From the IMG/VR virus record IMGVR_UViG_3300036831_000039, positions 1-63,105 of that record: DNA of 63,105 bases; one strand, given 5' to 3'. The first letter of the stretch is position 1, and each line of letters starts with the position of its first letter. Below, piece by piece: positions 3,070-50,088 of the stretch. Made by a program: the position numbers and the translations under genes. The DNA is from a virus. The notes under the pieces are model-generated. The model ran no database searches. It was not told the DNA's origin and saw nothing but the letters and a program-made list of their open reading frames with translations.

Positions 3070-3095
3070 GTTTTACAATTAGAAAGGAGCCAATT

Positions 3096-3809: not shown

Positions 3810-3889
3810 AATAATTGTAGTTGTGTACTAACGCCGTAGGCCCGCAGCTATTGCTAAACGGGCGAATGGGTTGGGGAGGAAAATAAGCA

Positions 3890-8434: not shown

Positions 8435-11400
8435 GTGGCAGAAGAACGATTTAAAAGGGTCACTAATAGATTCTACTGTAGGGGTATTGATCTCAATAAT
8501 CCTCTCGATTCTATTAGGGATAACTATTTTCCCATACTTGAAAATATCCGCTCATACCAAGACGGGAGTGTTCAGCCACGGCCAGGACTCACACTTATTG
8601 GATCAGTCATAACTGGTCAAACTCCTGTTCATAGTATTAGACGACTTAATGACCCTAAGAACTCCACATGGGCTAGAATTGTAGGAGCTGGAACAGGCCT
8701 AGCATACGGCCAGACCTCTTTTACTCAAGCACAATACAATAGTTCCAATGTAGTTTTCTCTGGTGATCCACTTACTATGGTGCCGTTTAGACCAGACCAG
8801 AGTACAGATTCCTGGATGTATATTGCGGATTCACTGGCTGCATATAAAATACGGCGAGATGGAGTTGTACATAAAATTGGAGTAGCACCTCCAACAGTAA
8901 CTCCGATTGCCGAACTGGATAGGCCCTTATTTGATAAACTATTAAACTTCCAAAGTACCACCGGATGGACTAGTGACGGAACTGTATGTCCTGGTACTGG
9001 ATTTTGGACAACTCCTAATAGAATTAACACTACTACTACTAAAGTTATTTATGATTCTGGAGTTAATGGCTGGTGTTGCATAGTTCCAGCTTCCATGTCA
9101 AATATTGGTGTTGGGTCTCTATTAGATGTTACCTATGCCGGGCCTTCAACAGAAACAGTTATTGTTTACGAGGCTTTTAGAGGATCATCTGCAACTACGA
9201 TTGCTTCAGTTGCTTGGGATGATGGTAGCGTTGGACCTGGAATGTGCACAATTCGTCCAGCAAATTCTCTTAACGAAATCAAACGTAATGCGGTTATTTT
9301 AATTAATGGTACTATTTATAGCCGTATTACAGATGTTATCAGTGGGCCAGATGGATCTATTGCATTTAGGTGCTCTAATCCTGCTTTTGGAATAGGAATT
9401 TCTATCCAGGTAATAAATTCGTTTAGAGTATATTCTCTAGGAGGATTTGCAGCTAATGGCGGAGATGTATTAGCCCAAAAAGACTTAAGTTTTGGTATTT
9501 TGGCTACTGGCACAGGCTATATTCAGAATAATACTGCGCTTGATCTTACGAAAATGAGTGTTTCATTGTCGTCTACAGGGGGGGCCCTATACGATGACGA
9601 TTATATCCATATTGCGTTCAAGTGCTCCGATCTAAGTAAGCTAACACAAGGTCGCATCATGTTTAATTGTGATGCTACCGATACCACATTTGCCCAAAAC
9701 TACTACTATCGTTCATTTACACCAAATGATCTGTTATTGGCGGCAAAAGGTACATTAACTTCTCTAGATACCCAAACTGTCGCCATTAACAATAATACAA
9801 TCGATACCACACAATTACGGTCTGGTCCTATTCTTTCTGGTAAAAATGATAGTAACGTTGATAATTTACTAGCGGATGCTGATCAACGCCTAGCTAATTT
9901 ACCACAAAATAGGAAAAAAACTGGTGATGTAGATCCTAACTCTCCTAATACCGCTGGAACCACTCGGTCACAGACGGCTACAGGGGATAATCAATGGTCT
10001 GAAATCAGATTTAAGCGCGCAGATTTACAGCGGGTAGGCACAGCCAACAGGGGTTACGCAGACATCACAGGATTTCGGTTAGAACTAACGATATCTGCAT
10101 TAGCAGTAACTATTGATGTTAACTCATTAACTATTTGGGGATCATCTGAACCCGATACAGGAGATATCGGAGAGCCTTATCAATACCGATATAGATATCG
10201 CGTATCTTCTACAGGGGCTTGTAGCAATTTCTCTCCAGCTAATTTCAGTGGAGTAAATGCTCTACGAACTCAAGTAATAGTTGCTATGACGGCATCTACG
10301 GCACCAGAGGTAGACAAAATTGATATAGAACGCAGGGGTGGTACATCTACAGAGTGGACATTTATAGGTACTGTATCCAATTCTGTGCATCAATTTACTG
10401 ATACCATTTCGGATGATGCGGCTATCGGAAATGCCCCATTGTCTGATGGCGATACTAATTTCCAGCCTTGGCCAGTTAGACTTGCTCCAATATCTGTAAC
10501 AGCCTCAATCGTAGGGGGATGCGTAATTAAAACTTTATCCGCATTGCCCACTGGATTGCTCAAAGGTACTGCAATTACTGTTAATGGTATTGCTACTACA
10601 TTTAGACGAATGTTAAGTGCCGGAGTGTATGAGCTATCAGACAGTATAGGCAATACTACTGGAGGGGTTACTGTAGAAGTTCCAGAACCAGTAATAACTA
10701 GTCCATTATCTGCATTATGGGGTCCATGGAAAGGTAGGGCATTAGCTTGTGGAGATGACAATAATCCAGGGACATTGTATATCTCTAATGGTAATAATTT
10801 TGATTCAACATTAGATATTCTTACTCTAGAGATTACTTCACCTTCTGAGCCCCTAATCAATGGCTGTGAGTTTAACGGAAGATGCTACGTATTCTCCTCG
10901 GAAAGAATGTTTGAAATTGAGCAAATTGGAGATAATCAGTTTATTTATTCCGAAGTACCTAATGCTAAAGGATTGTGGTCTAGATGGGCGCTTGCGGTAG
11001 GTTCTAGAATATTTTTTGAGGGAAAAGATGGCTTATACGGAACTATGGGCGGTCCTCCCATTTCTATTACAGATCAAACACTATTTCCGCTTTTCCCTAA
11101 TGAAGGAAATCTTGGAGTAAGTGTAAATGGCTTTAATCCACCAAACGTCATTAGTGGCCAAGAAAAATATCATAGAGTATCTTATTATGATAATTATGTA
11201 TATTTTGATTATAAAGATACTCAAGGCGGGTATAGAAGTTTAATGTTTACGGCTGATAGTTCCGAGCCTGGATGGTATCCGGACGTGTACACTCCTGGCG
11301 TAAGCTTTCACTATGGAGAAGAAGGTAAAGGCGTTCATAGTATTCTCTGTGGCGGAACCGATACTACTACGGGTAATTTATACCAGCTCTCGGGTACATC

Positions 11401-12373
11401 GGATAATGGAACAGCAATTAATTGGCATCTAGGAACTCCAGCATTTGATGCTCAGGATAGACGCGCAAAGAAACGTTGGGGGGATTTTGCATTCAAATCT
11501 TTCCCCGATAATTCTACAATTAATCTTGCACTTAAATATAATAACTACTCTTCTGCTGGTACCATATCACCGGCAACAATCACAGGAGCACAAGAAATTA
11601 TTAGCGTTCATGACATTAATTCTGGGGTAGGCACCGAACAATATAATGCCGCCCTTGATATTACAGGAGCCATTAGCGGTAATGCCCCCAAATTGTACTG
11701 GTGGGAGCCTTCTTATATTTACCGGCCAGAAGATAGTTTTCTACGTGGTACTGATTGGGACGATTTAGGATTAGATAGTGACAAATATATTTATGGTCTT
11801 CATATCACTACCAATACTCAAGGACTTTCTAGAACTGTACGACTTGAATATGATGGCGGACAGTTAGGAGCACTATTAACTATTAATCACAATGGATATC
11901 TTACTAATCCTTATCCATTTGATCCGTTCATTGCCCGAAGAATACGATTCTTGCCAACTGATCCTAATTCATGGCAGGAGTTTAAGTACCAAATTGTGTT
12001 TGAACCGGAGCCGCCACTAGTAGCACAGTGGGGCCCTAGTCAGCAAACATCTTTTGGATATGATGGGTATTTTCATTTACGAGAAGCTTATATAACTCTT
12101 ACCAATTCTGCGCCAGTTACTTTGACCATAACTCGGGCAGATGATGGTCAACAGTTTACATATACTATTCCCCCTGGCACTAGGAAAAAGACCTATCTAC
12201 AGCTAAATCCGATTAAAGCCAAAGGAATTTATTTTGAGATGACTTCTAGTGCTAACTTTAGGGTATATAAAGACGATATAGCTTTCATGGTTAAGCCATG
12301 GGCTAGCCAGCAACAGTTTAGACTTATCTCGCCATTTGGATTCTCTCATGGTGGTGGAGAGGCTAAGATTTAA
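8435..12373 (+). CDS. Tail nozzle / packaged-DNA stabilisation protein
   Basis: 1312 aa, GTG start. The N-terminus (RFYCRGIDLNNPLDSI, then YQDGSVQPRPGLTLIG) has the hallmark of podoviral nozzle proteins (T7 gp12 / P22 gp10 role), which open with a description of the mesh entering the tail and carry an RPG-type motif. The rest is beta-propeller-like, with repeats ending in GxxY or W and segments such as FNGRCYVFSSERMFEIEQ near the middle. The C-terminal third is beta-rich with a final SPFGFSHGGGEAKI. Its stop overlaps the next ATG (TAATG at 12371-12375). Together with the absence of a tape measure, this is the main evidence for short-tailed morphology. Confidence 0.8.
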   Translation: MAEERFKRVTNRFYCRGIDLNNPLDSIRDNYFPILENIRSYQDGSVQPRPGLTLIGSVITGQTPVHSIRRLNDPKNSTWARIVGAGTGLAYGQTSFTQAQYNSSNVVFSGDPLTMVPFRPDQSTDSWMYIADSLAAYKIRRDGVVHKIGVAPPTVTPIAELDRPLFDKLLNFQSTTGWTSDGTVCPGTGFWTTPNRINTTTTKVIYDSGVNGWCCIVPASMSNIGVGSLLDVTYAGPSTETVIVYEAFRGSSATTIASVAWDDGSVGPGMCTIRPANSLNEIKRNAVILINGTIYSRITDVISGPDGSIAFRCSNPAFGIGISIQVINSFRVYSLGGFAANGGDVLAQKDLSFGILATGTGYIQNNTALDLTKMSVSLSSTGGALYDDDYIHIAFKCSDLSKLTQGRIMFNCDATDTTFAQNYYYRSFTPNDLLLAAKGTLTSLDTQTVAINNNTIDTTQLRSGPILSGKNDSNVDNLLADADQRLANLPQNRKKTGDVDPNSPNTAGTTRSQTATGDNQWSEIRFKRADLQRVGTANRGYADITGFRLELTISALAVTIDVNSLTIWGSSEPDTGDIGEPYQYRYRYRVSSTGACSNFSPANFSGVNALRTQVIVAMTASTAPEVDKIDIERRGGTSTEWTFIGTVSNSVHQFTDTISDDAAIGNAPLSDGDTNFQPWPVRLAPISVTASIVGGCVIKTLSALPTGLLKGTAITVNGIATTFRRMLSAGVYELSDSIGNTTGGVTVEVPEPVITSPLSALWGPWKGRALACGDDNNPGTLYISNGNNFDSTLDILTLEITSPSEPLINGCEFNGRCYVFSSERMFEIEQIGDNQFIYSEVPNAKGLWSRWALAVGSRIFFEGKDGLYGTMGGPPISITDQTLFPLFPNEGNLGVSVNGFNPPNVISGQEKYHRVSYYDNYVYFDYKDTQGGYRSLMFTADSSEPGWYPDVYTPGVSFHYGEEGKGVHSILCGGTDTTTGNLYQLSGTSDNGTAINWHLGTPAFDAQDRRAKKRWGDFAFKSFPDNSTINLALKYNNYSSAGTISPATITGAQEIISVHDINSGVGTEQYNAALDITGAISGNAPKLYWWEPSYIYRPEDSFLRGTDWDDLGLDSDKYIYGLHITTNTQGLSRTVRLEYDGGQLGALLTINHNGYLTNPYPFDPFIARRIRFLPTDPNSWQEFKYQIVFEPEPPLVAQWGPSQQTSFGYDGYFHLREAYITLTNSAPVTLTITRADDGQQFTYTIPPGTRKKTYLQLNPIKAKGIYFEMTSSANFRVYKDDIAFMVKPWASQQQFRLISPFGFSHGGGEAKI

Positions 12374-16015: not shown

Positions 16016-18061
16016 ATGAGTTTATTTGGTAATATTGGAAATTTTCTAGGGGGCATTATGGGCTCCCCTGATGCTGCTCGTGGATTTGCGTCTGCTAATG
16101 CGGAATTCCAGCAAAAACGTCTGGAAGCCAAACAGCAGCGCTTTCAAAATATGGCTGAAATGTATTCGAATCTTGCTAAATCTACCGCTGATCCTGATCT
16201 AGCTAACGAGTTTGGTAGCAGAGCATTTCAATTTGCGAACGCAGACCCATACGATCCTAAAAGTCTTAAGACACTATCTAAGCTTGGCGATGTTAATCAG
16301 GTATATGAGGATCATTACCAGAAGAAATTGGCTAATCCTCAGCCACAGACCCCTCCACGGGATGAGTATGATGTACAGAACTTCATTGGCCCTGAGCCTA
16401 ATACTTATGATGTTCATGGACGGGTAACGCCTCAGCATGAAATATACGAGAAGGAACGTGCCACAATTGAACCTGCGACTACTCAGCTTAGAATGCGCCA
16501 GAAGCTTATTCAGGGGGCTCTTAGCAATCTTAGATCAAGGGGTGTAGATCCGGATAGCCCAGAGGGTGAACTAGAGCAGAATGTGGCTCTTAGAGGGGCA
16601 GGGATCAATGAAGCTACTCCTACATTTAGGCCGTATCCTACTACCCTCCCTGATGCAAATGGGCATAGACAGCCCGTATTGCTAATGTATGGCAGCCGGA
16701 GTGGTAAGTTCTACATGACCGGCCCTGATGGAAAGAGTACAGAAGTTCATCCTGATATGCCTACTCCACAAGTTAAAGTAGGGCCAGATGGGACAGTGTA
16801 TCCAATTTATTCAGGCGTTGTCGGCGCCCCAACAGGAAATGTAGGCGCTCAGACCGGGACAACTACATCTACTTCTACTACAGTTAATCCTATTACTAAT
16901 ACTACTACTACAGGCAGAACTACCGGGAAAGTTTTCTCTCCAGGTAAGGTAGGTGCGACCCCTATACAGTCACAACCACAGACTCAAGCCGTGCCTGGAA
17001 TGCCCCAAGTTTCTCCAATGTCCAATATGGCTATTCCAGCCCCAATTAGTAGTTCAATTAGTGGCATACATGGAACTTCCCCCGTTACTATGAGGGCATC
17101 TGCTCAAATGCCTCCACAAGGCCCCACAGCTCCCGTCAGCGGTCCTCCAACGTCTACTCCTACGCCGCCTATTGATTGGGAACGTATGGCCGTAGAAGCG
17201 CCTACAACGGACGCTAGAACAGTAGCTGATTATGTATTGAATCCGGAGAAATGGAACGAAGCGCCTAAAAATCAGGCCGCGTATAGAACATTATTCCAGA
17301 CATATAATTTGCCGGTTAACGGGCCTAATAGCAAAGTGCTTACTCAAGAGGGTAAACGTGCTAGAGCCATTCGGGATGGTATCGAGTCACTACAACATGT
17401 AAGAGAGTTAATTAATTCCACCGATGGTACTATTACAGGAACTATAGCGGGCCGGTGGATTAAGGCTATGAATGAGGTAGGCTCCGATAAAGGAATGGCT
17501 GCCACGTTCAAGAACTCTATTTTCCATCCTGATTTAGGATCATGGAATGACGGACCTAATCCACAGACATTAGCTAAATTTGCTCAAGACGCTAATCCTG
17601 GAGCTAATCCGGCTCAGGTTAATCAATTAGTTACTAGAGCATCGGATCTTATTACTAGTCTTAGAATTTTCAATATTACTGAATTACGGGCGCTATCAGG
17701 AGCCTCACAGGGTATTTCTAGGCTATTCCAGATGATTGCACCTGCGATGGCCGATCCTAAAATGGACCCAGGTATTATGAACGGGCATTTGCTGGCACTA
17801 CAGCGTAATTTCTTGGATAGTTATAAGAATATTTATACCGATGTATGGGGCCCTAAAATTCCTTATGCGCCTGGCAAAGAAATTATGGGACAGCTTAGAT
17901 TTTACCCTTCTACTGAGCAGAAAATTGGTATGCTCATGAAAGAGGGCGGGCTCAATAGAAATGATGCGGTATTTGAACTCTGGAAAAGAGGGAAATTGTC
18001 TGGTCCAGAGGATAAAGTTTACGATACTAAATTCGGTAAGCTTCCAACTTATACTCCGTAA
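16016..18061 (+). CDS. Internal virion / DNA-ejection protein (middle)
   Basis: 681 aa. The N-terminus (SLFGNIGNFLGGIMGSP) is a Gly-spaced amphipathic segment. Residues 20-90 are strongly helical (QQKRLEAKQQRFQNMAEM). Residues about 260-400 are a Thr/Pro/Gln low-complexity linker. The C-terminal 270 residues are helical (RAIRDGIESLQHVRELI). This is the layout of an ejected internal protein. No lytic transglycosylase motif is visible. It directly abuts its neighbours, implying one transcript. Confidence 0.6.
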   Translation: MSLFGNIGNFLGGIMGSPDAARGFASANAEFQQKRLEAKQQRFQNMAEMYSNLAKSTADPDLANEFGSRAFQFANADPYDPKSLKTLSKLGDVNQVYEDHYQKKLANPQPQTPPRDEYDVQNFIGPEPNTYDVHGRVTPQHEIYEKERATIEPATTQLRMRQKLIQGALSNLRSRGVDPDSPEGELEQNVALRGAGINEATPTFRPYPTTLPDANGHRQPVLLMYGSRSGKFYMTGPDGKSTEVHPDMPTPQVKVGPDGTVYPIYSGVVGAPTGNVGAQTGTTTSTSTTVNPITNTTTTGRTTGKVFSPGKVGATPIQSQPQTQAVPGMPQVSPMSNMAIPAPISSSISGIHGTSPVTMRASAQMPPQGPTAPVSGPPTSTPTPPIDWERMAVEAPTTDARTVADYVLNPEKWNEAPKNQAAYRTLFQTYNLPVNGPNSKVLTQEGKRARAIRDGIESLQHVRELINSTDGTITGTIAGRWIKAMNEVGSDKGMAATFKNSIFHPDLGSWNDGPNPQTLAKFAQDANPGANPAQVNQLVTRASDLITSLRIFNITELRALSGASQGISRLFQMIAPAMADPKMDPGIMNGHLLALQRNFLDSYKNIYTDVWGPKIPYAPGKEIMGQLRFYPSTEQKIGMLMKEGGLNRNDAVFELWKRGKLSGPEDKVYDTKFGKLPTYTP

Positions 18062-18072
18062 AGGAATATTAA

Positions 18073-20370
18073 ATGCCTGATTTGGATGCACTAATTAACG
18101 ATATTGATAAAAGAGCTACTACTGTGGCTGCTCCTAAAACGGGCCCGTCTCAATATGAGAGAGAGTCTGCGAGAAATTATGTGCCACAATCTGCTACAGG
18201 AGCGTTCCTAGACCAGCTTGGAATTGAGCATTCTACGCCATGGAGCGGAGTAAGTAATGCTGGTAAATTCTATGGCGGAATGGGTAAATCACTAGTCGTA
18301 GATCCACTAGTTTCTGCTGGTAGAATGTTGGCTGATCCAGTATCGGGAGTACAGGGGATTATAGATTCCCATAAAGCACAATTTGATAAAGCCGCTACTG
18401 ATATTAATTCCGGGCATCCTGTAAAGGCCTTCGGTCATACTCTAGCGGGCTCAGTACCGCTTGTAGGACCGTTTGTAGGGGATCTAGCAGATAAGATTGG
18501 CACTCAGGATACACTATCGGGCGCCGGCGGTATAGCAGGGGCTATGTTGCCAATGTTTAAGGGCGGCAGGGGAGCTCTGAATGAAGCCACATTGCCAGGA
18601 GCTAGGCGGGCTGCTGCGGAGAGATTAGCATCCTCTGGAGCGGGCGTAGATCGTATTGGAGATTATGGCTCAGCTCCGGCTAGTGCGATCGTAGATAATA
18701 CAGGACTAGCTATGAGTGGGGAAGGCCGTCTTAATCAAATTACAGCGGCTAAGAATGCTAAATTAAACGCTGTACGATCACTTATTAATTCTCCAGAAAT
18801 GACCGCTCGCCCATCACAAATGTTTGATGCTATTAACAGTGCGGCTGATAATGTTAGATCGTTTATTACCAAACCGGCTGCATTAGAAGAGCTAGAATCT
18901 CTGCGCCAGAAAGCTATTAATAGAAGTATTACTACTAGCTTTGATGGGAAAGGTACCCATTTTCCTGATGGTGTACTGGATATGCGCCAGTGGGCTGATA
19001 AAGGAATTAATGGTAAATTTGGTGCTGATACTGCGTCTATTTCTAAGCAATTCTATCAGTCTTTACGAGGAAATCTTAAGGACCAATTAAATAAAATAGC
19101 GCCAGAAGTTGCACCGCTTAATAATGAAGTTCATAGTTTAATTGATGCTGAGGAGCAGGCTACTAGAAGATTTAATTCTGATGGTAAAAAGCCTGTAGTT
19201 AATACTAGCAGCATTCCTGCAATGGTTAAGTCTCTTATTCCAGGGAAAACTCTAGCGTCTACCACAGCGCAGAAATTACTTAGTCTAGGTACTAAAGAGG
19301 CTCCGAATGTGCCACTTCATGATGTGCCTATGATAATGGGGGATAGGACTCCGAATACCTGGATTAATGGCGGAGATTTCAGAAATCCTAAGCTTGCAGC
19401 GCCTGTTATTAGTTCAGAGGGTTCTTATAATTTACCAAAAATTTCTGATCAAGAATTGTATAACATCTGGTCAAATGATGATCTATCACAAGAAGAGGTT
19501 AATTATAAATTTCACAGTTTGCCTTATCCCGCCCGACAGAGGTATCTAGAGCTAGACAATACTTATGACTCCGCCCTGGCTCACGGAGACACTAATCATC
19601 CGTGGGTTATAAATTATGGAATTCGCCCAGATGAATTTCCTACTAAATATTCGACTAGTGTTCCGACCGGGCCAGTAGGTGGAAATCCGCCAACATATAC
19701 TACTGGTCCAACCGCTGCCGATATTGATCTAGCTCACTCTCAGGGTGGAGTTCTACCAGTATTTGATAATGCCTATTTCCAACGGTCAATTAATTCATTA
19801 AATAATAACCCTATTAATTCACCCTCTAATATAACTAATCCTAGCTTTATAGTAGATACCACCACACCAGCACAGGAATCGTCCCCAATGGTAGCAGGCG
19901 GCGCTAATACTCTCTCGTCTCAGCCTTACAGCACTTATAACAATCCAGCGGCGAATTCCATTCCTGCAGTGCCCGAACGGCCCGCTTTAAAGCCACAAAA
20001 GACTGTTAGATCGGCTTCTCCAACAATTGCAGCCCCAACAATTAATTCCGCTCCAACAGCAGATATTAACCCTAATTCACCATATTCTCCTATGGGAAAA
20101 TCCACAATGGCTGGCGGATATGGATATGGTTCTGCACCAATTAAACCAGAAATTGCTCCACCTCCAACAATTAATTCAGAACAATCTCCGGTATTAGCCC
20201 CTAATTATCGGCCATTAACTGCTGATACATTTCCAGGAGAAAAGGTAATTGTTGATGGATTTCCGTCAACTGTATCTAGTGTTAAGAAAGTTGGTAATAA
20301 AACAGTTGTAAGATATTCCTACAAAGATAAAGGTGGATTTCTTACATTTGATGAAAAAGAGTTTAAATAA
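18073..20370 (+). CDS. Internal virion / DNA-ejection protein (large)
   Basis: 765 aa. Residues about 60-190 contain Gly/Ala-rich hydrophobic stretches (GSVPLVGPFVGDLADKIG, SGAGGIAGAMLPMFKGG) typical of membrane-inserting ejection proteins. Residues 190-400 are helical. The C-terminal 300 residues are rich in Pro, Asn, Thr and Ser and end in a basic SH3-like segment (VIVDGFPSTVSSVKKVGNKTVVRY). It is the third of the ejection cassette and is followed after 27 nt by holin-like and lysis genes. Confidence 0.6.
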   Translation: MPDLDALINDIDKRATTVAAPKTGPSQYERESARNYVPQSATGAFLDQLGIEHSTPWSGVSNAGKFYGGMGKSLVVDPLVSAGRMLADPVSGVQGIIDSHKAQFDKAATDINSGHPVKAFGHTLAGSVPLVGPFVGDLADKIGTQDTLSGAGGIAGAMLPMFKGGRGALNEATLPGARRAAAERLASSGAGVDRIGDYGSAPASAIVDNTGLAMSGEGRLNQITAAKNAKLNAVRSLINSPEMTARPSQMFDAINSAADNVRSFITKPAALEELESLRQKAINRSITTSFDGKGTHFPDGVLDMRQWADKGINGKFGADTASISKQFYQSLRGNLKDQLNKIAPEVAPLNNEVHSLIDAEEQATRRFNSDGKKPVVNTSSIPAMVKSLIPGKTLASTTAQKLLSLGTKEAPNVPLHDVPMIMGDRTPNTWINGGDFRNPKLAAPVISSEGSYNLPKISDQELYNIWSNDDLSQEEVNYKFHSLPYPARQRYLELDNTYDSALAHGDTNHPWVINYGIRPDEFPTKYSTSVPTGPVGGNPPTYTTGPTAADIDLAHSQGGVLPVFDNAYFQRSINSLNNNPINSPSNITNPSFIVDTTTPAQESSPMVAGGANTLSSQPYSTYNNPAANSIPAVPERPALKPQKTVRSASPTIAAPTINSAPTADINPNSPYSPMGKSTMAGGYGYGSAPIKPEIAPPPTINSEQSPVLAPNYRPLTADTFPGEKVIVDGFPSTVSSVKKVGNKTVVRYSYKDKGGFLTFDEKEFK

Positions 20371-40556: not shown

Positions 40557-40814
40557 ATGCGTTGGTCATGTCCAAATTGTGGATATATTACTAAGAGCCA
40601 ATTAAATCAGTCCAATTTCTATGTTGAATGCAAGAACGATCGCTGTGATAAGCCGTACGCATGGGGTTTTCACTTCTATGAGATGGCTCCCGGCCCGAAG
40701 AGCCCTCCGCCGGATATCATTATCCCTTCAGATCCTATGCGGGAGGGAGAGTTTAAACCTACTAAATGGCATAGTAAGGATACTGTTCATGAAGTTACCG
40801 AACCCGAATCTTAA
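40557..40814 (+). CDS. Zinc-ribbon protein on the opposite strand
   Basis: 85 aa from ATG 40557, which follows AGAGG by 4 nt; the frame is open to 40491 but that lies over the divergent gene. MRWSCPNCGYITKSQ and CKNDRCDKPYAWGFHFYE form a C4 zinc ribbon. It is the only clear plus-strand gene within the 23.5-54.2 kb minus-strand block and its 3' end overlaps the deaminase gene by 20 nt tail to tail. It looks like a separate insertion. Confidence 0.65.
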   Translation: MRWSCPNCGYITKSQLNQSNFYVECKNDRCDKPYAWGFHFYEMAPGPKSPPPDIIIPSDPMREGEFKPTKWHSKDTVHEVTEPES

Positions 40815-41175
40815 CTAGCCCTTCCATCGAATGCCAGTATACCACATACTTGATTCCTGAGTCTTGAATCAACTCTCGACACATCTCACATGGCTCTGAG
40901 GAGTGGTTAGCGTGATCTCGTGCAGAGTAGAGAGTAGCTCCATGAAGAGGTGTGTTCGACTTGATAAGCGCTCGTTGTTCGGCATGGATGCTACGCTTGT
41001 TGAACTGCTCTCCGAGCGGGTGGCTAACTAGGCGGTTAACTGCAACTGATACAGGCTTGCCTGACTTGACTATTACGCAGCCATGGCGAGATTTACATTC
41101 GGATTCTGAGGCTAGTTTGAGAGCAAGAGTATACCATGTGTGATCTTTAGTGGTTAACTGTCGAGCGGCATCCAA
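40795..41175 (-). CDS. Cytidine/deoxycytidylate deaminase-family protein
   Basis: 126 aa. The zinc deaminase motifs are SIHAEQRAL (H-A-E, near residue 65) and SSEPCEMCREL (P-C-x-x-C, near 93). It is expected to convert dCMP or a free cytosine nucleotide to the uracil form. Beside a UDG-fused polymerase and MazG this fits tuning of the dUMP/dTMP pool. It overlaps the upstream paralog by 22 nt. Confidence 0.85.
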   Translation of the reverse strand: MDAARQLTTKDHTWYTLALKLASESECKSRHGCVIVKSGKPVSVAVNRLVSHPLGEQFNKRSIHAEQRALIKSNTPLHGATLYSARDHANHSSEPCEMCRELIQDSGIKYVVYWHSMEGLVKIRVR

Positions 41176-41561
41176 AGTAGCTCCAATCTTGATCCATCCT
41201 CAAATTCATATTCTTCAGGATTTACGAGCTTATCCATTTTTAATGCCCAATCACGAAGAGCTTTTCGGTTAACCTTCCAAACCCAAAGCTTAATCTTGTT
41301 ACTCGAATTTGGGTTAACTACTGGCTTGTCTGAGGTAACAGTTCCAAGTTTTCTTCTTACTATAAATTTGGCCAACCTAGTCCCATTACCATTGGCCACA
41401 GTATCGGAAAAGAGAATGTAACTAAACCCTGGGAAAAGATCCTCTTGAAGAAGTCCACTATCTTCAAAGGCCTCAAATAAGCTTTGATCGAGATTATTAT
41501 GGTTATAAAGCGCATGAAGCTGGTGAATTCCGCATGAAATTTGTGTAGAATCTATGAACAT
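41154..41561 (-). CDS. Paralogous family member A (FSD...LGTV...NPN family)
   Basis: 135 aa. Family features: QISCGIHQLHALYN at the N-terminus, YILFSDTVANGNGTRLAKFI in the middle, KLGTV then NPNSSNKIKLWVWKVNR, and a final helix LRDWALKM. Three more copies follow at 41591-41924 (frameshifted), 41931-42254 and 42973-43425. Such proteins are widespread in phage genomes without known function. Their alpha/beta pattern with conserved WxW and NPN suggests a small binding domain. Confidence 0.65.
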   Translation of the reverse strand: MFIDSTQISCGIHQLHALYNHNNLDQSLFEAFEDSGLLQEDLFPGFSYILFSDTVANGNGTRLAKFIVRRKLGTVTSDKPVVNPNSSNKIKLWVWKVNRKALRDWALKMDKLVNPEEYEFEDGSRLELLWMPLDS

Positions 41562-41930: not shown

Positions 41931-42254
41931 TTATCCTGCATTTACCCACTTTAAAGTGGCTAATCTATCAACTTCCCACACCAATACTCGAATTTTATGT
42001 CCTGTGTTAGGATTAGCCTTAACAGAGGACTTAATTACTTTACCAAGTTTGTTATTCTCAATAAATTTAGCTAATTTAGCCCCATTTCGATTAGCAATGG
42101 CATCTGAAAATACAATAAATGGGGTAATAAGCTTGAAACTAATTCCACTTCCGCTCCTGTACCAATCTGTGCACTCAAGGTTAATAATATCGATAAGAGC
42201 TTTTTTAATGTCATTCGTCTTAAGCTCATACAAGTCACTTCTGATCAACTCCAT
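41931..42254 (-). CDS. Paralogous family member C
   Basis: 107 aa from ATG 42254 (the frame is open to 42284; the shorter start aligns with the other copies). Shares FIVFSDAIANRNGAKLAKFI, KLGKV and NPNTGHKIRVLVWEVDR with copy A. It lies directly upstream of the broken copy B, with a 7-nt gap. The 125 bp upstream of it (42255-42379) contain no gene and may hold a promoter. Confidence 0.65.
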   Translation of the reverse strand: MELIRSDLYELKTNDIKKALIDIINLECTDWYRSGSGISFKLITPFIVFSDAIANRNGAKLAKFIENNKLGKVIKSSVKANPNTGHKIRVLVWEVDRLATLKWVNAG

Positions 42255-42379
42255 AAAATTGCTTACCTTTCTCCGTCTGTCCATTTTCAGTAATAGCGGG
42301 CCGCAGAAATTAATTAGTTAAATAGTTTGTTATAAGATGCGTGCAGAAATGAGGGAGGCTTTTTACTGGCTCTAGTCAG

Positions 42380-43460: not shown

Positions 43461-43537
43461 TGGTGCCCTTGAGAGGAGTCGAGCCTCTAACCGAGAGATT
43501 AGAAATCTCTTACTCTATCCTATTGAGCTACAAGGGC
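43461..43537 (-). tRNA. tRNA-Arg (anticodon UCU)
   Basis: A complete 77-nt cloverleaf with encoded CCA. Acceptor GCCCTTG/CAAGGGC; D-stem GCTC/GAGT; anticodon stem AGAGA/TCTCT with loop TTTCTAA, so anticodon TCT reads AGA; T-stem AGAGG/CCTCT with loop CTCGACT. AGA is a common codon in this genome, which supports the usual codon-compensation role of phage tRNAs. It lies 11 nt after the stop of the 43548 gene and is probably processed from the same transcript. Confidence 0.95.
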
Positions 43538-43547
43538 AGACTAAGAT

Positions 43548-43769
43548 TCACTCTGACATAAATTCTATTACACTCTTAAGAATGTTCGCCGCATGCATAG
43601 GATGCATAGAGCCATCCCTAAGCCCCGCTTCAGTCCTGGCTAATTCTCTTTTAATCTCCGCTAAGGCTTTCTCTATTAGATCGGCTAATGCTTCTTTAGG
43701 CAATTGGCTAAGCTCTTCCACCGTCTGGGTTATTACGTTCTCCCCTAGTCTTTTTCCTATTTCACTCAT
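43548..43769 (-). CDS. Small helical protein
   Basis: 73 aa from ATG 43769 (ATGA overlap; the frame is open to 43784). Helical and charged (LSQLPKEALADLIEKALAEIKREL). Unknown function. Confidence 0.6.
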   Translation of the reverse strand: MSEIGKRLGENVITQTVEELSQLPKEALADLIEKALAEIKRELARTEAGLRDGSMHPMHAANILKSVIEFMSE

Positions 43770-43996
43770 ACCAACTCCTTCCACCTAAGAATGTCTGCAA
43801 AATTTAGCGCTGATTTAGGGGATAGTTTCATAGGCCTAATCTCGTTATAGGTAATTGAGTTAGGACCGCTACGGGCATATTTTGCGTAAACTGTGGCTGC
43901 TTCCTCATCTACTACGATCGCATACTTCCCGAAAGGCCTATCCGAAGAGTAAGCTTGAAAGTAATGTCCGTTGGGGTCTATGAATATACGGGCCAT
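43766..43996 (-). CDS. Small hypothetical protein
   Basis: 76 aa, beta-rich N-terminus (GKYAIVVDEEAATVYAKYA) and helical end. Overlaps the amidotransferase gene by 19 nt. Unknown function, part of the amidoligase island transcript. Confidence 0.55.
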   Translation of the reverse strand: MARIFIDPNGHYFQAYSSDRPFGKYAIVVDEEAATVYAKYARSGPNSITYNEIRPMKLSPKSALNFADILRWKELV

Positions 43997-45510
43997 TCAA
44001 GCTCATCTCCTTCTGGAGGCCCTAGGCGATTCTCTTTGTCGGTTAGAAAGCCAATTGCGGCCTGTGTAGCTTCATCAGGATCTTGTGCGGTAGTAGTATT
44101 GAGGACCACTAACGATGTAGATTCCTCACCAGAATGTGCTTTGTTACCTTCTAGAGCTAGTACGAGTTCGGACTCTGGAATGCAATAACAACTACACTGA
44201 TTGCACCAAATATTGCTAGTAAGTTCTCCCTTAGTGTGGATGTCCGTGGAAAGGAAGTGGCCACAGTCTCGACACATTTTAACTGTTAACAACTTGCATG
44301 CTTCGTCTTGTTTTCCCTGGCACTGAACAAGGCTATTGAACAAGCACATGCCCCAAATGTGATACTTCAGCGGATCATTACACCTCGGGCAAATGGTAGT
44401 AAGTTCTACCTCTCCAAAAGTTTCGGAGTTGGAATCAGCATTTCGCAGCATGACACTCCGAAGCCGCTCAATCGGAACCAGATTATCCGGAACAGGATCA
44501 CTAGTAAGCTTTTCCCATTCAGCTTCCATTGCTTCAAAGTGTGCTGTAGTTGGAACTAGCTTACTCTTACGACGAAGAGCTTTCTTTTGGGCTTTAGAGA
44601 GCTTATGGATTCCGTCTGCAGAAGGGGTAGAGAAATTTCCATGAACTACATTGCTAGTAGTTCCTTTGATTGCATTCTGACGTTCAGTTCTGCGGCGCTC
44701 TAACCAACTTTTCTCTGTTTCACTAAGTCCTAGAGTGTTCCATTCATGAGTGTTACCAGAGGATCTAGAACTAGACCACGTAGACATACCACGGAAATTC
44801 TTACTAGCTTCTTTTTCCTCAAACACTTCCCCGTTTTCAATTTTGTACCATGTATCAGGATTGATAATGAGCGATCTCATATCCATACCGAGTAGGTTAG
44901 CCGCTTTGTCAAGCGCTCTCCATTCGGATGCCCAAACAACTAAATTCTGACGTTCTCCGTCAGCTTTAGGCTTGCTACGGTAGAAATTGGCTACCGAAAT
45001 ATTGCCGCCGTTAGTCTTAAAAAACCTAATAGACTTATAATCGTTTGATTTACTTGCGTAGAACACTACCCCATATCCGGATAGCTCCAGTAGTGGAAGA
45101 TCCTCGTTAATATGAGCAAAGAGGTGTTGAGAATCCACTTCAAACGTTCTCCCATACTTTTCATTCATTTCTTTATAGTTACCTACTGAGCCATTGTGCA
45201 CGCCGATAATATTTCCCACCTCAAACGGATGAGCATTAGGAATGCTAACTTCTCCTACTGTGGCAGCCCTGGTATGACCGAGAATCTTAGGATATACCGA
45301 TATTTCCCTAAGTACATGACTGCCCTTTTCAGAGATTTTGCCAAGCCCCTTAATTACATCAATTTTTCCGGTAGGATCAAATAATGCTACTCCGAAGGAA
45401 TCCTTACCTCGGCCTTCCATTTCAGAAGCAAGGGTTACTCCTAGGATGCCTGCTTCGTATTCGGTAAGGTTATTATCGTCTGTACACTGAAACCCGAAAA
45501 TTCCACACAT
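43978..45510 (-). CDS. Class II glutamine amidotransferase-like protein with zinc-ribbon tail
   Basis: 510 aa. The N-terminus MCGIFGFQ puts the nucleophile Cys at position 2, as in Ntn-type glutaminases. ILGHTRAATVGEVSIPNAHPFEVGNIIGVHNGSVGNY (about residues 76-112) carries the Arg, Asn and HNG residues that bind glutamine. After about residue 240 the protein diverges from known amidotransferases: a charged helical part (KAQKKALRRKSKL), then CPRCNDPL, CRDCGHF and CNQCSCYC, i.e. two zinc ribbons. There is no synthetase domain, so the amide nitrogen would go to a partner, most likely the adjacent amidoligases. It follows the amidoligase stop without a gap. Confidence 0.8.
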   Translation of the reverse strand: MCGIFGFQCTDDNNLTEYEAGILGVTLASEMEGRGKDSFGVALFDPTGKIDVIKGLGKISEKGSHVLREISVYPKILGHTRAATVGEVSIPNAHPFEVGNIIGVHNGSVGNYKEMNEKYGRTFEVDSQHLFAHINEDLPLLELSGYGVVFYASKSNDYKSIRFFKTNGGNISVANFYRSKPKADGERQNLVVWASEWRALDKAANLLGMDMRSLIINPDTWYKIENGEVFEEKEASKNFRGMSTWSSSRSSGNTHEWNTLGLSETEKSWLERRRTERQNAIKGTTSNVVHGNFSTPSADGIHKLSKAQKKALRRKSKLVPTTAHFEAMEAEWEKLTSDPVPDNLVPIERLRSVMLRNADSNSETFGEVELTTICPRCNDPLKYHIWGMCLFNSLVQCQGKQDEACKLLTVKMCRDCGHFLSTDIHTKGELTSNIWCNQCSCYCIPESELVLALEGNKAHSGEESTSLVVLNTTTAQDPDEATQAAIGFLTDKENRLGPPEGDELEWPVYS

Positions 45511-46968
45511 TTAAATTGTCTCCAAATAAAGATTTTCAGTAATTAATGCTTGAGGTTGAATTTTATTTCGATAGTTACTCATTAAAGTAGCTGGAAGGAT
45601 CTTATCTCCAAAGGATGCATTGGATCGAATGTAATCTGATAATTCCAGCTTATTGCGAAAGTAGTCTATTGATTGTTTAGATACCAATTGACCCATTAGA
45701 AATAAGCCGGAGGTAATATTCTCTTTGCCCTGTGTTTCTTTCGCTTCGGATTTGTTTAATAGATCCTGTAGCTTTGAGTAGCTAATAGATTTAATGCTAT
45801 CGAATAGCTCTAGTAGGAGCTTAACCCATCCATAAATCTCGTTGAAATCTACCGCACCATGATGGAGCCGAAATTCTACAGTGCCTCTAAGAAAGTATGT
45901 GTGGAGATTTACTGCCGAATAGCGGACTTCATTGCGATTTCCACGGATACGCCCATAATGATCTCGCTTGGAACGTAAATATTCATTAGGGTTTCCAAGT
46001 GCTGCATCTCCGTATACTTTCTTGATAATGGCAGGTTTAAGAGACTTAGTATCAGGCTTAATACCTTTTAGAATACCCTCGCTAAGATATTCGCCACACG
46101 GCCTACAGAACGCACTATTGATCCTGGATGAGTGTACTGAGCCAAACAGAACAGGTTCTAGCCGGCTATACACAGCTACAAACCGTTGTATTTCTTGATA
46201 ACCTAAATCTCTACAATCAATATGGACATGTAGGCCACATGAAGTATTGACTTTGGCGTCAGCAGCGATTAACCCGTCGCAGATATCCTTGAGTTCATTA
46301 TATAACGCATCTCCGCAAGCGGGCGTGGTGTTGATTTCAAATGATCTATTGGTGTTACTTACAATAGATCCGTCATGTACCACGCTACAGCCCCATTTAG
46401 ATAATGCTGCATTCAGTTCTTTAGCATTACCATACTCGCTTACCTCAATTTCCACTGCTGCAAATCGTTTTGAGGAATTGTGGATAAATCCCTTCGGACT
46501 TAGGCAAGTTCTCTGCATACCGTTGGATATAAGTAGAGATGAAGTGGCGTCCGTAAATGATGGATCTGGAAAAGTCTTTACTTCCGGATAAGCAAAGTTT
46601 ACTTCGCCAATCCTATCAGCTTCTCTCCACTGGATGGGCTTCCAGCAACAAGAGTGGAAGTAAGTCTTACAACAATTTTTGCACCGGGTACTATTACTTC
46701 CACCTTGTGGACAGCATCCGCAGATATAGTCTTTTATTGGAAATGTATTACCACAACTAGAGCAATATTTATGTTCTTGTTCTTTATCCTTAGGAGATGT
46801 TCCGAGAGTACGATTAGGATAAAGTTTCTTACAGCATCGCACACAACTAGCTATCTCAGGGTTAGCACCACGGGCTGGCTTACAGCAAGTGTTATTGCTA
46901 TTGCTGCAACGACGTGTGTAATTACTATTAAACTCATTACCGCAAATATAACATCTAGTAGGTTTCAT
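45511..46968 (-). CDS. Amidoligase-family (GS-like COOH-NH2 ligase) protein with N-terminal zinc ribbons
   Basis: 485 aa. Residues 1-105 contain about six Cys pairs (CYICGNEF, CVRCCKK, CSSCGNT, CGCC, CKNCCK), a tandem zinc-ribbon array. The catalytic half starts at AAVEIEVSEYG (near residue 170), continues with TSCGLHVHIDCRDL (near 245) and RGTVEFRLHHGAVDFNEIYGWVKLLLELF (near 368). This is the Glu, HxH and EFRxxxG pattern of the Amidoligase_2 family related to glutamine synthetase. Such enzymes join carboxyl and amino groups using ATP. The substrate is not known. Tightly coupled (ATGA) with the zinc-ribbon gene upstream and the amidotransferase downstream. Confidence 0.8.
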   Translation of the reverse strand: MKPTRCYICGNEFNSNYTRRCSNSNNTCCKPARGANPEIASCVRCCKKLYPNRTLGTSPKDKEQEHKYCSSCGNTFPIKDYICGCCPQGGSNSTRCKNCCKTYFHSCCWKPIQWREADRIGEVNFAYPEVKTFPDPSFTDATSSLLISNGMQRTCLSPKGFIHNSSKRFAAVEIEVSEYGNAKELNAALSKWGCSVVHDGSIVSNTNRSFEINTTPACGDALYNELKDICDGLIAADAKVNTSCGLHVHIDCRDLGYQEIQRFVAVYSRLEPVLFGSVHSSRINSAFCRPCGEYLSEGILKGIKPDTKSLKPAIIKKVYGDAALGNPNEYLRSKRDHYGRIRGNRNEVRYSAVNLHTYFLRGTVEFRLHHGAVDFNEIYGWVKLLLELFDSIKSISYSKLQDLLNKSEAKETQGKENITSGLFLMGQLVSKQSIDYFRNKLELSDYIRSNASFGDKILPATLMSNYRNKIQPQALITENLYLETI

Positions 46969-47552
46969 TTCTGTCGCCTTTTCATTGCAGCAGTGCTTAA
47001 TCTGAGTCCTTCCGCTTCGTTATAGTACGGGTTAACAGAATCTATAATTTCTCTGATATCTGAAGGACCATAAAGAGTTTCAAGGTAGGTTTTACCATTA
47101 CCAATCTCTGGAGCTTCCTTGCGTGAGTTACAGCAAAACCTGCACATAGTCATGCGGTGGCTTACATGGTTGCACATTGCCCCGAATACCTTGAAACTAA
47201 TAAACCTATGATTGCAGCTAAAACAAGAAAACGATTTAACTTTCCAAGCGGCGTCTACTAGTTTCCAGGGAATGGCCCATTTTGGGAACTTAATGATAGT
47301 TCCACCACAATTACATGCAAAAGGCACGGGCTTAGGACTATTGGTAATTATCCGGCACTTAACCTTCTGGTACTTCTTGCCACAATCTCTGCATACGCCA
47401 CGAATGTTCGACGGAAGAGCTCCCCAATACTTATTAATCCACTTATACGTAGACCTAGTATAAGGATCACCTAACACAAAACGTCTGCGTTCGATGTAAC
47501 TAAATGGAGCTTGTGGGTTAATATATTTATTTACATAGTTATGTTCCGTCAT
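46965..47552 (-). CDS. Multi-zinc-ribbon protein
   Basis: 195 aa. CRDCGKKYQ with CNCGG, then CFSCNHRF with MCRFCCNS, give two or three zinc ribbons. A C-terminal part (LETLYGPSDIREIIDSVNPYYNEAEG) is helical. It resembles the zinc array at the N-terminus of the amidoligase that follows (4-nt overlap), so it may help substrate binding in the same complex. Confidence 0.65.
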   Translation of the reverse strand: MTEHNYVNKYINPQAPFSYIERRRFVLGDPYTRSTYKWINKYWGALPSNIRGVCRDCGKKYQKVKCRIITNSPKPVPFACNCGGTIIKFPKWAIPWKLVDAAWKVKSFSCFSCNHRFISFKVFGAMCNHVSHRMTMCRFCCNSRKEAPEIGNGKTYLETLYGPSDIREIIDSVNPYYNEAEGLRLSTAAMKRRQK

Positions 47553-47575
47553 AGCACTCCTTTTACCTATCCTTT

Positions 47576-47794
47576 TTAACTATTGTATAGTTCTTTGAGT
47601 GTTTCATTAAGATAACATAAAATTTTCCTGTCAGCCGTTGACAAATGTATTGCTAATCTACAATCTTCAGTGCTAACCCAATTAGCATGCAATATCGAGT
47701 TAAGAACCTGTGACAGGTGGGAAGCCTCTTTCGCTGTCATAGTAATTTGCACGTCTAGTGGAAGTGGAGTAGGCGGAACCCAACCGCTTTTCAT
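47576..47794 (-). CDS. Small protein of a duplicated family (copy 1)
   Basis: 72 aa: a Pro-rich start, then DVQITMTAKEASHLSQVLNSIL, and a C-terminal helix. Resembles the 70-aa gene at 53136-53348 (EVQVIMTEEQAKALIRFAL). Overlaps the ATP-grasp stop by 4 nt. Unknown function. Confidence 0.6.
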   Translation of the reverse strand: MKSGWVPPTPLPLDVQITMTAKEASHLSQVLNSILHANWVSTEDCRLAIHLSTADRKILCYLNETLKELYNS

Positions 47795-48528
47795 TGTAGT
47801 TCTCTCATAATCTGGTCTGTGTAGACTTCCACGGAGGGTCCTTGGTCGAGCCCAGGAGCCGTGTTAACCTCTAGCACGTAAGCGTTATTCCCGGGCACGA
47901 TTCCGAGGTCTACCGCTCCGAAATCTAGCCCTAACGCGGCCACTGCTGACTTCGCCAATTCTCGCCGATCCTGACGAATTCTGACAGCTAACGAATAGTC
48001 AATCTTCCACCCGCTTTCGTATGATCGTATCCATTCGTGTGGATTTGGTATGCGAGGAACTTTGATGCCTGCATGAATAGACTTGCCTTTGAATACGTGG
48101 ATTCGCATTTCCCGAATAAGAGGAAGCTTTTGTGTATAGAAGTCTCTTCCTCCGCCCGTTAATAGATCTCGCCCCCCTTGATGATGTAGTGAACGTCCTA
48201 TACTCCCCGGGGCAGGATAATCATACATTTCTGGAACAGGGATACCCTTACTCGCTAAAGTTAGTAATTCTTCTTTTTTACTACCTACAATATAGGGGTT
48301 CAAAATTTTAAGTCTAATTGGAAATAGGACAAGATTATGCGGATCTTTAAAAGACCCCCAATTAACCCATAGGTCATTAGTTTTAAGCCTATTTGCAAAT
48401 CTATTTAAAGAGGTATTAGAAAGACGTGTAGAGGTTTTGTATGCTCTCACTCCCCTTGCTCTAAGGGAGTCTCGAAGTCTAATTGCGCTCTCTGATGCTC
48501 TGGGACACCATATGTGAACTCGTGACAA
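47791..48528 (-). CDS. ATP-grasp ligase (RimK-like)
   Basis: 245 aa. The ATP-grasp core is shown by GSKKEELLTLASKGIPVPEM (near residue 82), the strand KLPLIREMRIHVFKGKSI (near 134), and the Mg-binding end GAVDLGIVPGNNAYVLEVNTAPGL (near 203-225). ATP-grasp enzymes activate a carboxylate as acyl phosphate and attack it with an amine, forming peptide or amide bonds. It lies between two amidoligase genes, so a multi-step peptide or amide tag is the likely product. It lacks the N-terminal partner domains of host glutathione or D-Ala ligases. Confidence 0.8.
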   Translation of the reverse strand: MSRVHIWCPRASESAIRLRDSLRARGVRAYKTSTRLSNTSLNRFANRLKTNDLWVNWGSFKDPHNLVLFPIRLKILNPYIVGSKKEELLTLASKGIPVPEMYDYPAPGSIGRSLHHQGGRDLLTGGGRDFYTQKLPLIREMRIHVFKGKSIHAGIKVPRIPNPHEWIRSYESGWKIDYSLAVRIRQDRRELAKSAVAALGLDFGAVDLGIVPGNNAYVLEVNTAPGLDQGPSVEVYTDQIMRELQ

Positions 48529-48542
48529 GACTTAGGCTCCTC

Positions 48543-48926
48543 TTATAACTTCAGTTTTAGAATTTTCTTTTCTTCATCAGTAAGCTTATCTAGTGCTGTC
48601 TTCTTTTTGCGTAGAAATTCCTTGTGGCTCTTTAAGTTCTCTTTCCTAGCTTTATCAGCGGCAACATGATCTCTCCACCACATTTGAAGTTCTAGGGATC
48701 GTCTAGCAATATTAATAGGAGACTTTTTTAGCAGAGAGCAGAGTTCAGCAACTGCATTATCCAGTGCTTCATTACTGTATTTGTTATAGGCACGATTATC
48801 ATAGCCATTCTTAAAGTTTTCGGAATTAACTGGAATTCCTGTTTTTACTTCATCAATTAGCCGGAAAACTTGTGATAACAGCCGTTCGTCTCTTGTAGCT
48901 TCTAGATAATCACCATTACAGGGCAT
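48543..48926 (-). CDS. Helical protein of unknown function
   Basis: 127 aa from ATG 48926, about 11 nt after GGAGG and just beyond the amidoligase stop; the longer frame to 49025 is a shadow. Mostly helical with a very basic coiled-coil end (KARKENLKSHKEFLRKKK). Might be an adaptor of the island. Confidence 0.6.
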   Translation of the reverse strand: MPCNGDYLEATRDERLLSQVFRLIDEVKTGIPVNSENFKNGYDNRAYNKYSNEALDNAVAELCSLLKKSPINIARRSLELQMWWRDHVAADKARKENLKSHKEFLRKKKTALDKLTDEEKKILKLKL

Positions 48927-48930
48927 ATTT

Positions 48931-50088
48931 CTACATACCTCCACAGCTAGGATTGTTACATCCTGGCACTTTACACACACCGCTAAGAATGCTCTCTGCA
49001 TGCCTACGAAACCCTTTACCGTCAATTCCAGCCTCTTTCCATTCTTCAGGAGTAAGTGGTTCAGCAGGATTTGAAGTTAAATGTGATAGAAAGGAAATTG
49101 ACTTGTGGTTAAATGGTATATGACTCAAAACCCATTCAGCAGTGCTATTATTCATGTTATTAATGGCAAATCTCGCCTTATCAGAGAGTTGTTCGGGAGG
49201 AGTTCCGTAGTTGATAGCAAAGTACAGTGCTGTACGGTATAGATTAAACATAAGACTAACGTATACCGGATTGCTGAGGACTGAGCCAGGAAGTACCCTA
49301 TACTCGACTCCGTGTGTATGGTGGCGATAATCCCTTTTTTCTAGGGCAGTTGCGCCCACAGTAATTGTCGGAACTGGATATTCTCGGTATCTGAACTCTC
49401 CCGCACGGCCATAGGCTTTCCGCCTTAAAATCTCCATCTTAGGCTCATCGGGAGATACCAGTACCCAGGTACAGCCTACCAGAATGTCTGCCCAACGGAC
49501 CAAATCATAGGCTACTTTATCAGTCTTGAGCGATGGATGGGTGAGGTGTAGGTGACCACCAGTTGTCCGCATCCGTTCCGATAGATAAGACGGATCACCA
49601 CAATCATCATAAATATTCAGACTTGGAGAGCAGCCCAGCCGCTTAACATCGTCCGGGGCAGCTTCTTGATCTTTTTTAGGGATGGAATACACAGCAGGCA
49701 TTTCAATAGTAAGCTTAGAGCTACCCACTAGTGATTTAGCGGTAGACAGTGCCACTCCTAGTCTATTCATAATTACATCTAGGCAATAGTGAGGCGGGAT
49801 GCACAACTCCATAGCGTATCCATCACCGTGGAAATCGCTTCTAATCGAGGAGTGTAATTCAGTGGGAAAGCTAACTTTAGGATTATATGGCTCACGTTCC
49901 TGGGGGAAACCTACCTCATGTGGCCAAATGGTTTTGAGCCTATGAGATTTTGGATCACGATGCTTGAAAAGCATTTCCGTATCCATTCCTAGAAGTACCA
50001 AACTATCTGAAACTGTCTGGTTTTGTGAAGAGAAAATGTTAAGGGCAAACTCATCATCAAACGGCATTTTAATCTTATCTTCTGTCAT
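48931..50088 (-). CDS. phiEco32-type COOH-NH2 ligase (amidoligase, second type)
   Basis: 385 aa. GMDTEMLFKH (near residue 34) provides the first metal Glu, ELHSSIRSDFHGDGYAMELC (near 77) the second, RTTGGHLHLTHPS (near 184) the HxH, and HGVEYRVLPGSVLSNP (near 263) the ExR motif of GS-like ligases. The pattern matches the COOH-NH2 ligase type 2 family described from phage phiEco32. A C-terminal Cys/His group (CKVPGCNNPSCGG) may bind zinc. It precedes the ATP-grasp gene and is a second, distinct amidoligase in the same transcript. Confidence 0.8.
   Translation of the reverse strand: MTEDKIKMPFDDEFALNIFSSQNQTVSDSLVLLGMDTEMLFKHRDPKSHRLKTIWPHEVGFPQEREPYNPKVSFPTELHSSIRSDFHGDGYAMELCIPPHYCLDVIMNRLGVALSTAKSLVGSSKLTIEMPAVYSIPKKDQEAAPDDVKRLGCSPSLNIYDDCGDPSYLSERMRTTGGHLHLTHPSLKTDKVAYDLVRWADILVGCTWVLVSPDEPKMEILRRKAYGRAGEFRYREYPVPTITVGATALEKRDYRHHTHGVEYRVLPGSVLSNPVYVSLMFNLYRTALYFAINYGTPPEQLSDKARFAINNMNNSTAEWVLSHIPFNHKSISFLSHLTSNPAEPLTPEEWKEAGIDGKGFRRHAESILSGVCKVPGCNNPSCGGM

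Follow-up and report, generated by a model that had tools for sequence, protein, structure and literature searches.

Organisation of the locus

We analysed a stretch of viral DNA of 63,105 nucleotides (IMG/VR record IMGVR_UViG_3300036831_000039, positions 1-63,105; hereafter the window). A cluster of minus-strand genes at 43978-50088 encodes four enzymes, namely a COOH-NH2 ligase, an ATP-grasp ligase, an Amidoligase_2 protein and a class II glutamine amidotransferase (GATase-II), together with a free cysteine-rich protein (Table 1). An earlier note on this DNA (the original prediction) had considered the cluster the best candidate for an undescribed system. All the open reading frames (ORFs) that it named were open at their coordinates on the minus strand. 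The four-enzyme set is nevertheless a known phage cassette, already in the literature and annotated in many phages. The window very probably carries a divergent member of this cassette, and the novelty lies in a second lineage formed by the window, two close IMG/VR relatives and a few distant contigs.

The four enzymes and their zinc modules

The COOH-NH2 ligase matched phrog_3815 (E=6.7e-17), while its match to PF14395, at 20.7 bits, fell under the Pfam cut-off of 25. Residues D36, E38, D89, E94, H179, H181, R222, R233, E262 and R264 were invariant in 17 of 17 phages. A structure model with a mean predicted local distance difference test score (pLDDT) of 52 was compared with known folds. The top Foldseek matches were glutamine synthetases (GS) and YbdK, with a best E of 1.2e-3. 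VIA-align gave Z 12.6 with Dop (4b0r; root-mean-square deviation 4.4, 259 residues aligned), 12.1 with GS (4.4, 241), 12.0 with PafA (4bjr; 4.5, 268) and 10.8 with YbdK (1r8g; 4.4, 238); differences in Z below 1 count as ties, so that these four are not ranked. This suggests that the COOH-NH2 ligase carries a GS-like fold, the model being supportive rather than precise. We also asked whether the COOH-NH2 ligase and Amidoligase_2 are homologous; their profiles did not match with the small alignments used, and a shared fold may still relate them.

The ATP-grasp ligase, besides its PHROG match, matched the Pfam RimK and D-Ala-D-Ala ligase families under their cut-offs. Its residues E140, R142, K156, D207, E220 and N222 were invariant in 19 of 19 sequences, and the protein is 56% identical to the copy in one of the two close relatives (L002). 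Amidoligase_2 scored 76 bits against PF12224 (cut-off 22), and E175, D199, E211, H247, H249, Y350, N354, E365 and R367 were invariant in 18 of 18. For GATase-II, the match to GATase_6 (PF13522) was above cut-off and the profile aligned to the GlmS glutaminase domain (1xff, E=3.7e-9). Cys2, R81, N106, G107 and D126 were conserved in 17 to 18 of 18 sequences, the exception being an ORF call with an internal start. The protein has no recognisable synthetase domain, and no close relatives of it were found in bacterial genomes. The enzyme identities proposed originally are thus confirmed by family matches and invariant residues, and neither the GS-like nor the ATP-grasp active site is missing.

The six-pair cysteine array that had been ascribed to Amidoligase_2 was borne out in number: six CxxC pairs are present. 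Its description as one array has to be corrected, as five pairs lie within residues 6-99 and the sixth (C288/C291) inside the catalytic domain. The free 195-residue zinc protein was present in the window and its two close relatives alone among the loci of the pools searched, and its AlphaFold model (pLDDT 34) was uninformative. We considered whether it corresponds to the hypothetical protein of about 200 residues found beside classical Amidoligase_2 and rejected this, as there was no profile similarity. The cysteine-rich modules were considered as the novelty and rejected: many two-gene loci have an Amidoligase_2 array, and GATase-II ribbons occur commonly in classical phages. Both modules are missing from some intact four-gene cassettes.

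Table 1. Genes of the cassette and its immediate surroundings in the window.
Feature	Positions	Strand	Evidence
COOH-NH2 ligase, GS/GCS-like amidoligase, 385 aa	48931..50088	-	phrog_3815, invariant residues, fold match
Small protein, 127 aa	48543..48926	-	phrog_11759, E=2.9e-14, from residue 34
ATP-grasp ligase, 245 aa	47791..48528	-	phrog_2599, E=1.4e-24
72-aa ORF between ATP-grasp ligase and zinc protein	47576..47794	-	open frame, 4-bp overlap with neighbour
Free Cys-rich putative zinc-binding protein, 195 aa	46965..47552	-	Cys/His kept in both close relatives
Amidoligase_2 with N-terminal Cys array, 485 aa	45511..46968	-	PF12224, E=5.6e-21
GATase-II, N-terminal Cys2 nucleophile and C-terminal ribbons, 510 aa	43978..45510	-	GATase_6, E=9.3e-9
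SCGV-type small protein, 150 aa	42973..43425	-	alignment; clusters with L002 8193-8585 and L010 9567-9995

The cassette is a conserved unit

Each of 18 diverse loci encoded the ATP-grasp ligase, Amidoligase_2 and GATase-II, and 17 also encoded the COOH-NH2 ligase, the remaining locus being cut off at a contig edge. As these loci had been gathered by their likeness to the cassette proteins, two less biased samples were taken. The first comprised 80 IMG/VR loci selected solely by the classical COOH-NH2 ligase. All four enzymes were found in 71 of them, and every one of the 40 loci flanked by 6 kb or more on each side had the four on one strand; 29 of these 40 also encoded a gamma-glutamyl cyclotransferase (GGCT) and 12 a class I glutamine amidotransferase (GATase-I). 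The second comprised 79 loci selected solely by GATase-II. Amidoligase_2 accompanied it in 78, and within the stretch examined the COOH-NH2 ligase was found in 8 and the ATP-grasp ligase in 9. This indicates that GATase-II and Amidoligase_2 form the minimal unit, to which the other two ligases are added. The gene set therefore recurs across phages as a conserved neighbourhood, and the window contains all four enzymes clustered on one strand.

In the literature the set is called a peptidoglycan modification cassette and is meant to block superinfection (PMC5498523, PMC10580990, PMC11945000). PMC5498523 and PMC10580990 credit its description to Iyer et al. 2009 and Hardies et al. 2013, and Iyer 2009, as cited in PMC4431377, tied such ligases to peptide modification. 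The prediction goes back to 2009, and the literature searched contained no experiment on the cassette genes. In phage UFV-P2 the cassette corresponds to ORF21-29 (PMC3890496). Pseudomonas phage tf encodes the four enzymes within tf_19 to tf_24, followed by GGCT as tf_25. CrAss-like cr108_1 and Leptolyngbya phage Lbo-JY46 carry the four enzymes in other gene orders; Amidoligase_2 of both and GATase-II of Lbo-JY46 appear in the annotation as hypothetical proteins and were identified here through profile searches. The Lbo-JY46 cassette (L007 2733-6942) adjoins PncB and PrsA genes (nicotinamide adenine dinucleotide and phosphoribosyl pyrophosphate metabolism), and the locus holds three class I amidotransferase-like genes. 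Among the records listed, the genera named for phages with these ligases are Gram-negative. PF14395-type matches in metagenome-assembled genomes may stem from phage contigs binned with their hosts, and no host was therefore inferred from them.

Each described group resembles the window in part. The LUZ24-like phages (tf, UFV-P2) share the four enzymes, encoded on one strand upstream of primase/helicase and polymerase genes as in the window. Their order is COOH-NH2 ligase, Amidoligase_2, GATase-II, ATP-grasp ligase and GGCT, whereas that of the window is COOH-NH2 ligase, ATP-grasp ligase, zinc protein, Amidoligase_2 and GATase-II; the window also lacks GGCT, has an Amidoligase_2 with a cysteine array, and belongs to a clade of its own in the trees of the COOH-NH2 ligase and of GATase-II. 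The phiEco32-/7-11-like phages (Salmonella phage 7-11, Escherichia phage Bas90) have the same four enzymes and a GATase-II with C-terminal CxxC ribbons but, unlike the window, also GGCT and an Amidoligase_2 without the N-terminal array. The Zobellviridae (PA11/TC6, CW02) again share the four enzymes and differ by a class I, Peptidase_C26-type amidotransferase, by GGCT in CW02 and by the lack of a cysteine array. Finally, two-gene systems on viral contigs (reported for OM43 phages) join a ribbon-bearing GATase-II to an adjacent array-bearing Amidoligase_2 as in the window, but mostly have no COOH-NH2 or ATP-grasp ligase nearby and often have GGCT.

A divergent, zinc-rich lineage

The window's version of the cassette was found in IMG/VR contigs 3300005615_000002 and 3300005330_000025, both with the order COOH-NH2 ligase, small ORF, ATP-grasp ligase, zinc protein, Amidoligase_2 and GATase-II. 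Recurrence of the same order in two independent contigs argues that the gene set is more than a chance assembly. The window and its two close relatives (L002 and L010) are hereafter called the trio; scans of IMG/VR with profiles of the trio's Amidoligase_2 and COOH-NH2 ligase returned the trio alone.

In the COOH-NH2 ligase tree, the trio and L020, L021, L031 and L091 (7 rows) were separated from 31 classical rows with support of 100/99. GATase-II placed the trio with L004, L020, L021, L025 and L031 in an 8-row clade (99/98), and the ATP-grasp tree gave a similar group (94/88) minus L020, whose tested copy sits elsewhere; the L020 cassette contains two adjacent ATP-grasp ligases (2262-2990 and 2969-3826), of which one was tested. 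The trio's Amidoligase_2 fell outside the classical LUZ24/phiEco32/Zobellviridae clade (100/100 split), its exact sisters not being separated. The COOH-NH2 ligase, GATase-II and Amidoligase_2 trees thus all place the window outside the classical lineage. Since long branches were flagged in all trees and the roots are midpoint roots, these results describe a split and not its direction.

GGCT or GATase-I was found, within the stretch examined, in 88 of 98 four-enzyme loci, and in none of the five whose Amidoligase_2 has at least two N-terminal CxxC pairs. The other five loci without either gene were L031 and L091, which belong to the second lineage, L133, L134 and L176; L134 appears to duplicate phage 7-11, and the GGCT of that phage is located outside the stretch examined. 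Searches of the whole records with PF06094 and PF07722 found neither family in the window, L002, L010, L020, L021, L025, L031 or L004, and gave the expected matches in the controls tf, 7-11 and TC6. This absence is not proof, as the records may be fragments. The accessory genes, being common and not universal, were not used to define the cassette. Amidoligase_2 of the second lineage usually bears a cysteine array, a trait that is frequent in two-gene loci too and hence not specific to the lineage; the free zinc protein is an addition of the trio alone. We also considered the SCGV-type small proteins described below as diverged GGCT and rejected this for want of profile similarity.

Small genes and surroundings

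The ORF at 48543-49025 (160 residues) probably has a spurious TTG start, which alone accounts for its overlap with the COOH-NH2 ligase. The internal ATG start that yields the 127-residue protein is preferred because the PHROG match begins only at residue 34. No counterpart of this protein was found in the two close relatives. It gave a weak Cas11d-like PADLOC match (E 6e-5), probably a helical or compositional similarity; as this match to a small helical ORF was the sole one, PADLOC defence families were rejected as an identity. Pfam and PHROG searches gave no family match for the 72-residue ORF, and the 76- and 78-residue ORFs downstream of GATase-II (43548-43996) had no informative match.

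A ~70-nt conserved stretch with a CTAGGC...GCCTAG inverted repeat lies upstream of the COOH-NH2 ligase in L010 (~7998-8070) and L002 (~6725-6800). It showed no Rfam match and no significant folding, and it was not seen in the window. Directly downstream of the window cassette is a tRNA-Arg(TCT) (43461-43537, minus); the relatives carry tRNA-Ile(TAT) and tRNA-Arg(TCT) genes (L010 15661-15753 and 15980-16056; L002 5775-5867). Beside the tRNA-Arg lie three minus-strand copies of a family of small SCGV/SCGI proteins (41154-41561, 41931-42284 and the copy in Table 1), for which no database match was found. Besides the copies named there, the family occurs at L010 7260-7709, and in the relatives it lies inside or beside the cassette. 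The gene at 40795-41175 (minus) encodes a dCMP/cytidine deaminase-like protein (PF00383, E 4e-15), and L002 has a homologue close to its cassette. For three large plus-strand ORFs of the structural region (8435-12373, 16016-18061 and 18073-20370; 1312, 681 and 765 residues), neither Pfam nor PHROG gave a match at the thresholds used. The window phage is far from described phages.

Possible function of the cassette

The idea of a multi-step amide-bond pathway, put forward in the original prediction, is supported by the active-site residues, the GS-like fold and the conserved neighbourhood. We consider the best overall explanation, with a probability of about 0.5, to be a split amide synthetase and two ligases that act early on one peptide, possibly a wall precursor. 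GATase-II would release ammonia from glutamine, or hydrolyse or transfer a gamma-glutamyl amide. Its obligate partner Amidoligase_2, a GS-like enzyme, would activate a carboxylate with ATP and form the amide. The two would constitute a split glutamine-dependent amide synthetase held together by the zinc modules, a proposal to which we give even odds; it is suggested by the near-strict pairing of a GATase-II without a synthetase domain and a GS-like ligase. Further amide bonds on the same peptide would be the work of the other two enzymes, the GS/GCS-like COOH-NH2 ligase and the ATP-grasp ligase. In the window, helicase and DNA polymerase genes follow the cassette on its own strand, in a minus-strand block of early type, and in tf and TC6 the cassette likewise precedes primase/helicase; this position upstream of replication genes suggests early expression. 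The enzymes would then probably act in the cytoplasm of the host, with a peptidoglycan precursor as the most plausible substrate, and the changed wall would benefit the phage, for example against superinfection. The reading of the cassette as wall modification in the literature and the Gram-negative genera noted above speak for this. Peptidoglycan precursor as the substrate is a tentative choice, and substrate and benefit alike are guesses.

The nature of the target was approached through shared genes. No further gene family was common to more than half of the 18 diverse loci, so that no phage-encoded target is evident, and in the cassette region the three members of the trio had no conserved short peptide ORF (15-60 residues) in common. 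A target of the host is therefore more likely.

Several observations weigh against this explanation. No experiment linking any cassette member to peptidoglycan was found. The conserved glutamine-binding residues of GATase-II would equally suit a gamma-glutamyl peptidase of the EgtC/Dug3 type, and they fit ammonia release and gamma-glutamyl hydrolysis alike. In many loci Amidoligase_2 and GATase-II are present and the other two ligases are not, which argues that one fixed multi-step pathway is not universal. Since accessories that cleave gamma-glutamyl bonds are missing from the second lineage, its product may differ. Lastly, with a mean pLDDT of 52, the model of the COOH-NH2 ligase cannot make its fold matches precise.

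The cassette might instead attach a tag or amino acids to a protein of the host (or of the virion), in the manner of pupylation or RimK, and so redirect host function. Resemblance of the ATP-grasp enzyme to RimK-type ligases, zinc arrays as typical binding modules that could recruit a protein, and the link to peptide modification attributed to Iyer 2009 in PMC4431377 are all consistent with this. Among solved structures, the model of the COOH-NH2 ligase resembles not only GS but also Dop and PafA, although their rank above GS carries no weight, the differences being ties. The trio showed neither a Pup-like protein nor any other small conserved peptide, and as no phage protein is common to the cassette loci, the target would need to be a host protein. 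We consider protein tagging unlikely.

It is less likely again that the cassette makes or recycles soluble gamma-glutamyl metabolites (amines or amides, for example) as a set of auxiliary metabolic genes in nitrogen or polyamine metabolism. The GS/GCS-like ligases, and the GGCT and Peptidase_C26-type GATase-I of classical cassettes, are compatible with such a role, but the window lineage lacks both accessories and three ligases per operon exceed the needs of such a cycle. A role in nitrogen metabolism was proposed in an eLife paper (PMC10945688); the evidence there is phage addition and not gene tests, and the phage record is by sequence a LUZ24-like Pseudomonas phage. That record (L015, OP650935.1, 'Poriferisphaera phage ZRK32'), used in the paper for a phage of Planctomycetes, aligns with Pseudomonas phage SCYZ1 over 80% of the queried stretch at 84% identity. 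Given this identity and its LUZ24-like cassette, the host assignment of ZRK32 and the nitrogen-metabolism claim merit a second look.

We also doubt, rather strongly, that the array-bearing lineage without GGCT and GATase-I yields a product of its own, in which three ligases and a glutaminase, scaffolded by zinc modules, would mark a wall peptide or a protein of the host with a stable tag, either gamma-glutamyl or of several residues. Known graspetides are short ribosomal peptides matured by ATP-grasp ligases, but a similar role for the ATP-grasp enzyme and the other ligases here is highly improbable, as the cassette region of the trio has no conserved ORF of precursor size. Zinc ribbons frequently bind nucleic acid and the cassette adjoins replication genes; modification of a DNA base or tRNA with amino acids can nonetheless hardly be expected, as inspection of the cassettes, short of a systematic search, revealed no recognisable gene for base hypermodification and the ribbon and array modules are, as noted above, not present in every intact cassette.

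The window thus contains a real, intact and divergent cassette of known kind, ordinary as a system discovery and notable as a second lineage. Cassettes of this kind occur widely among phages that infect major laboratory hosts. Our counts separate a near-obligate pair, GATase-II and Amidoligase_2, from two added ligases and from GGCT and GATase-I, which are dispensable and without which the zinc-rich lineage appears to manage. They also indicate which genes to co-express first and which to delete.

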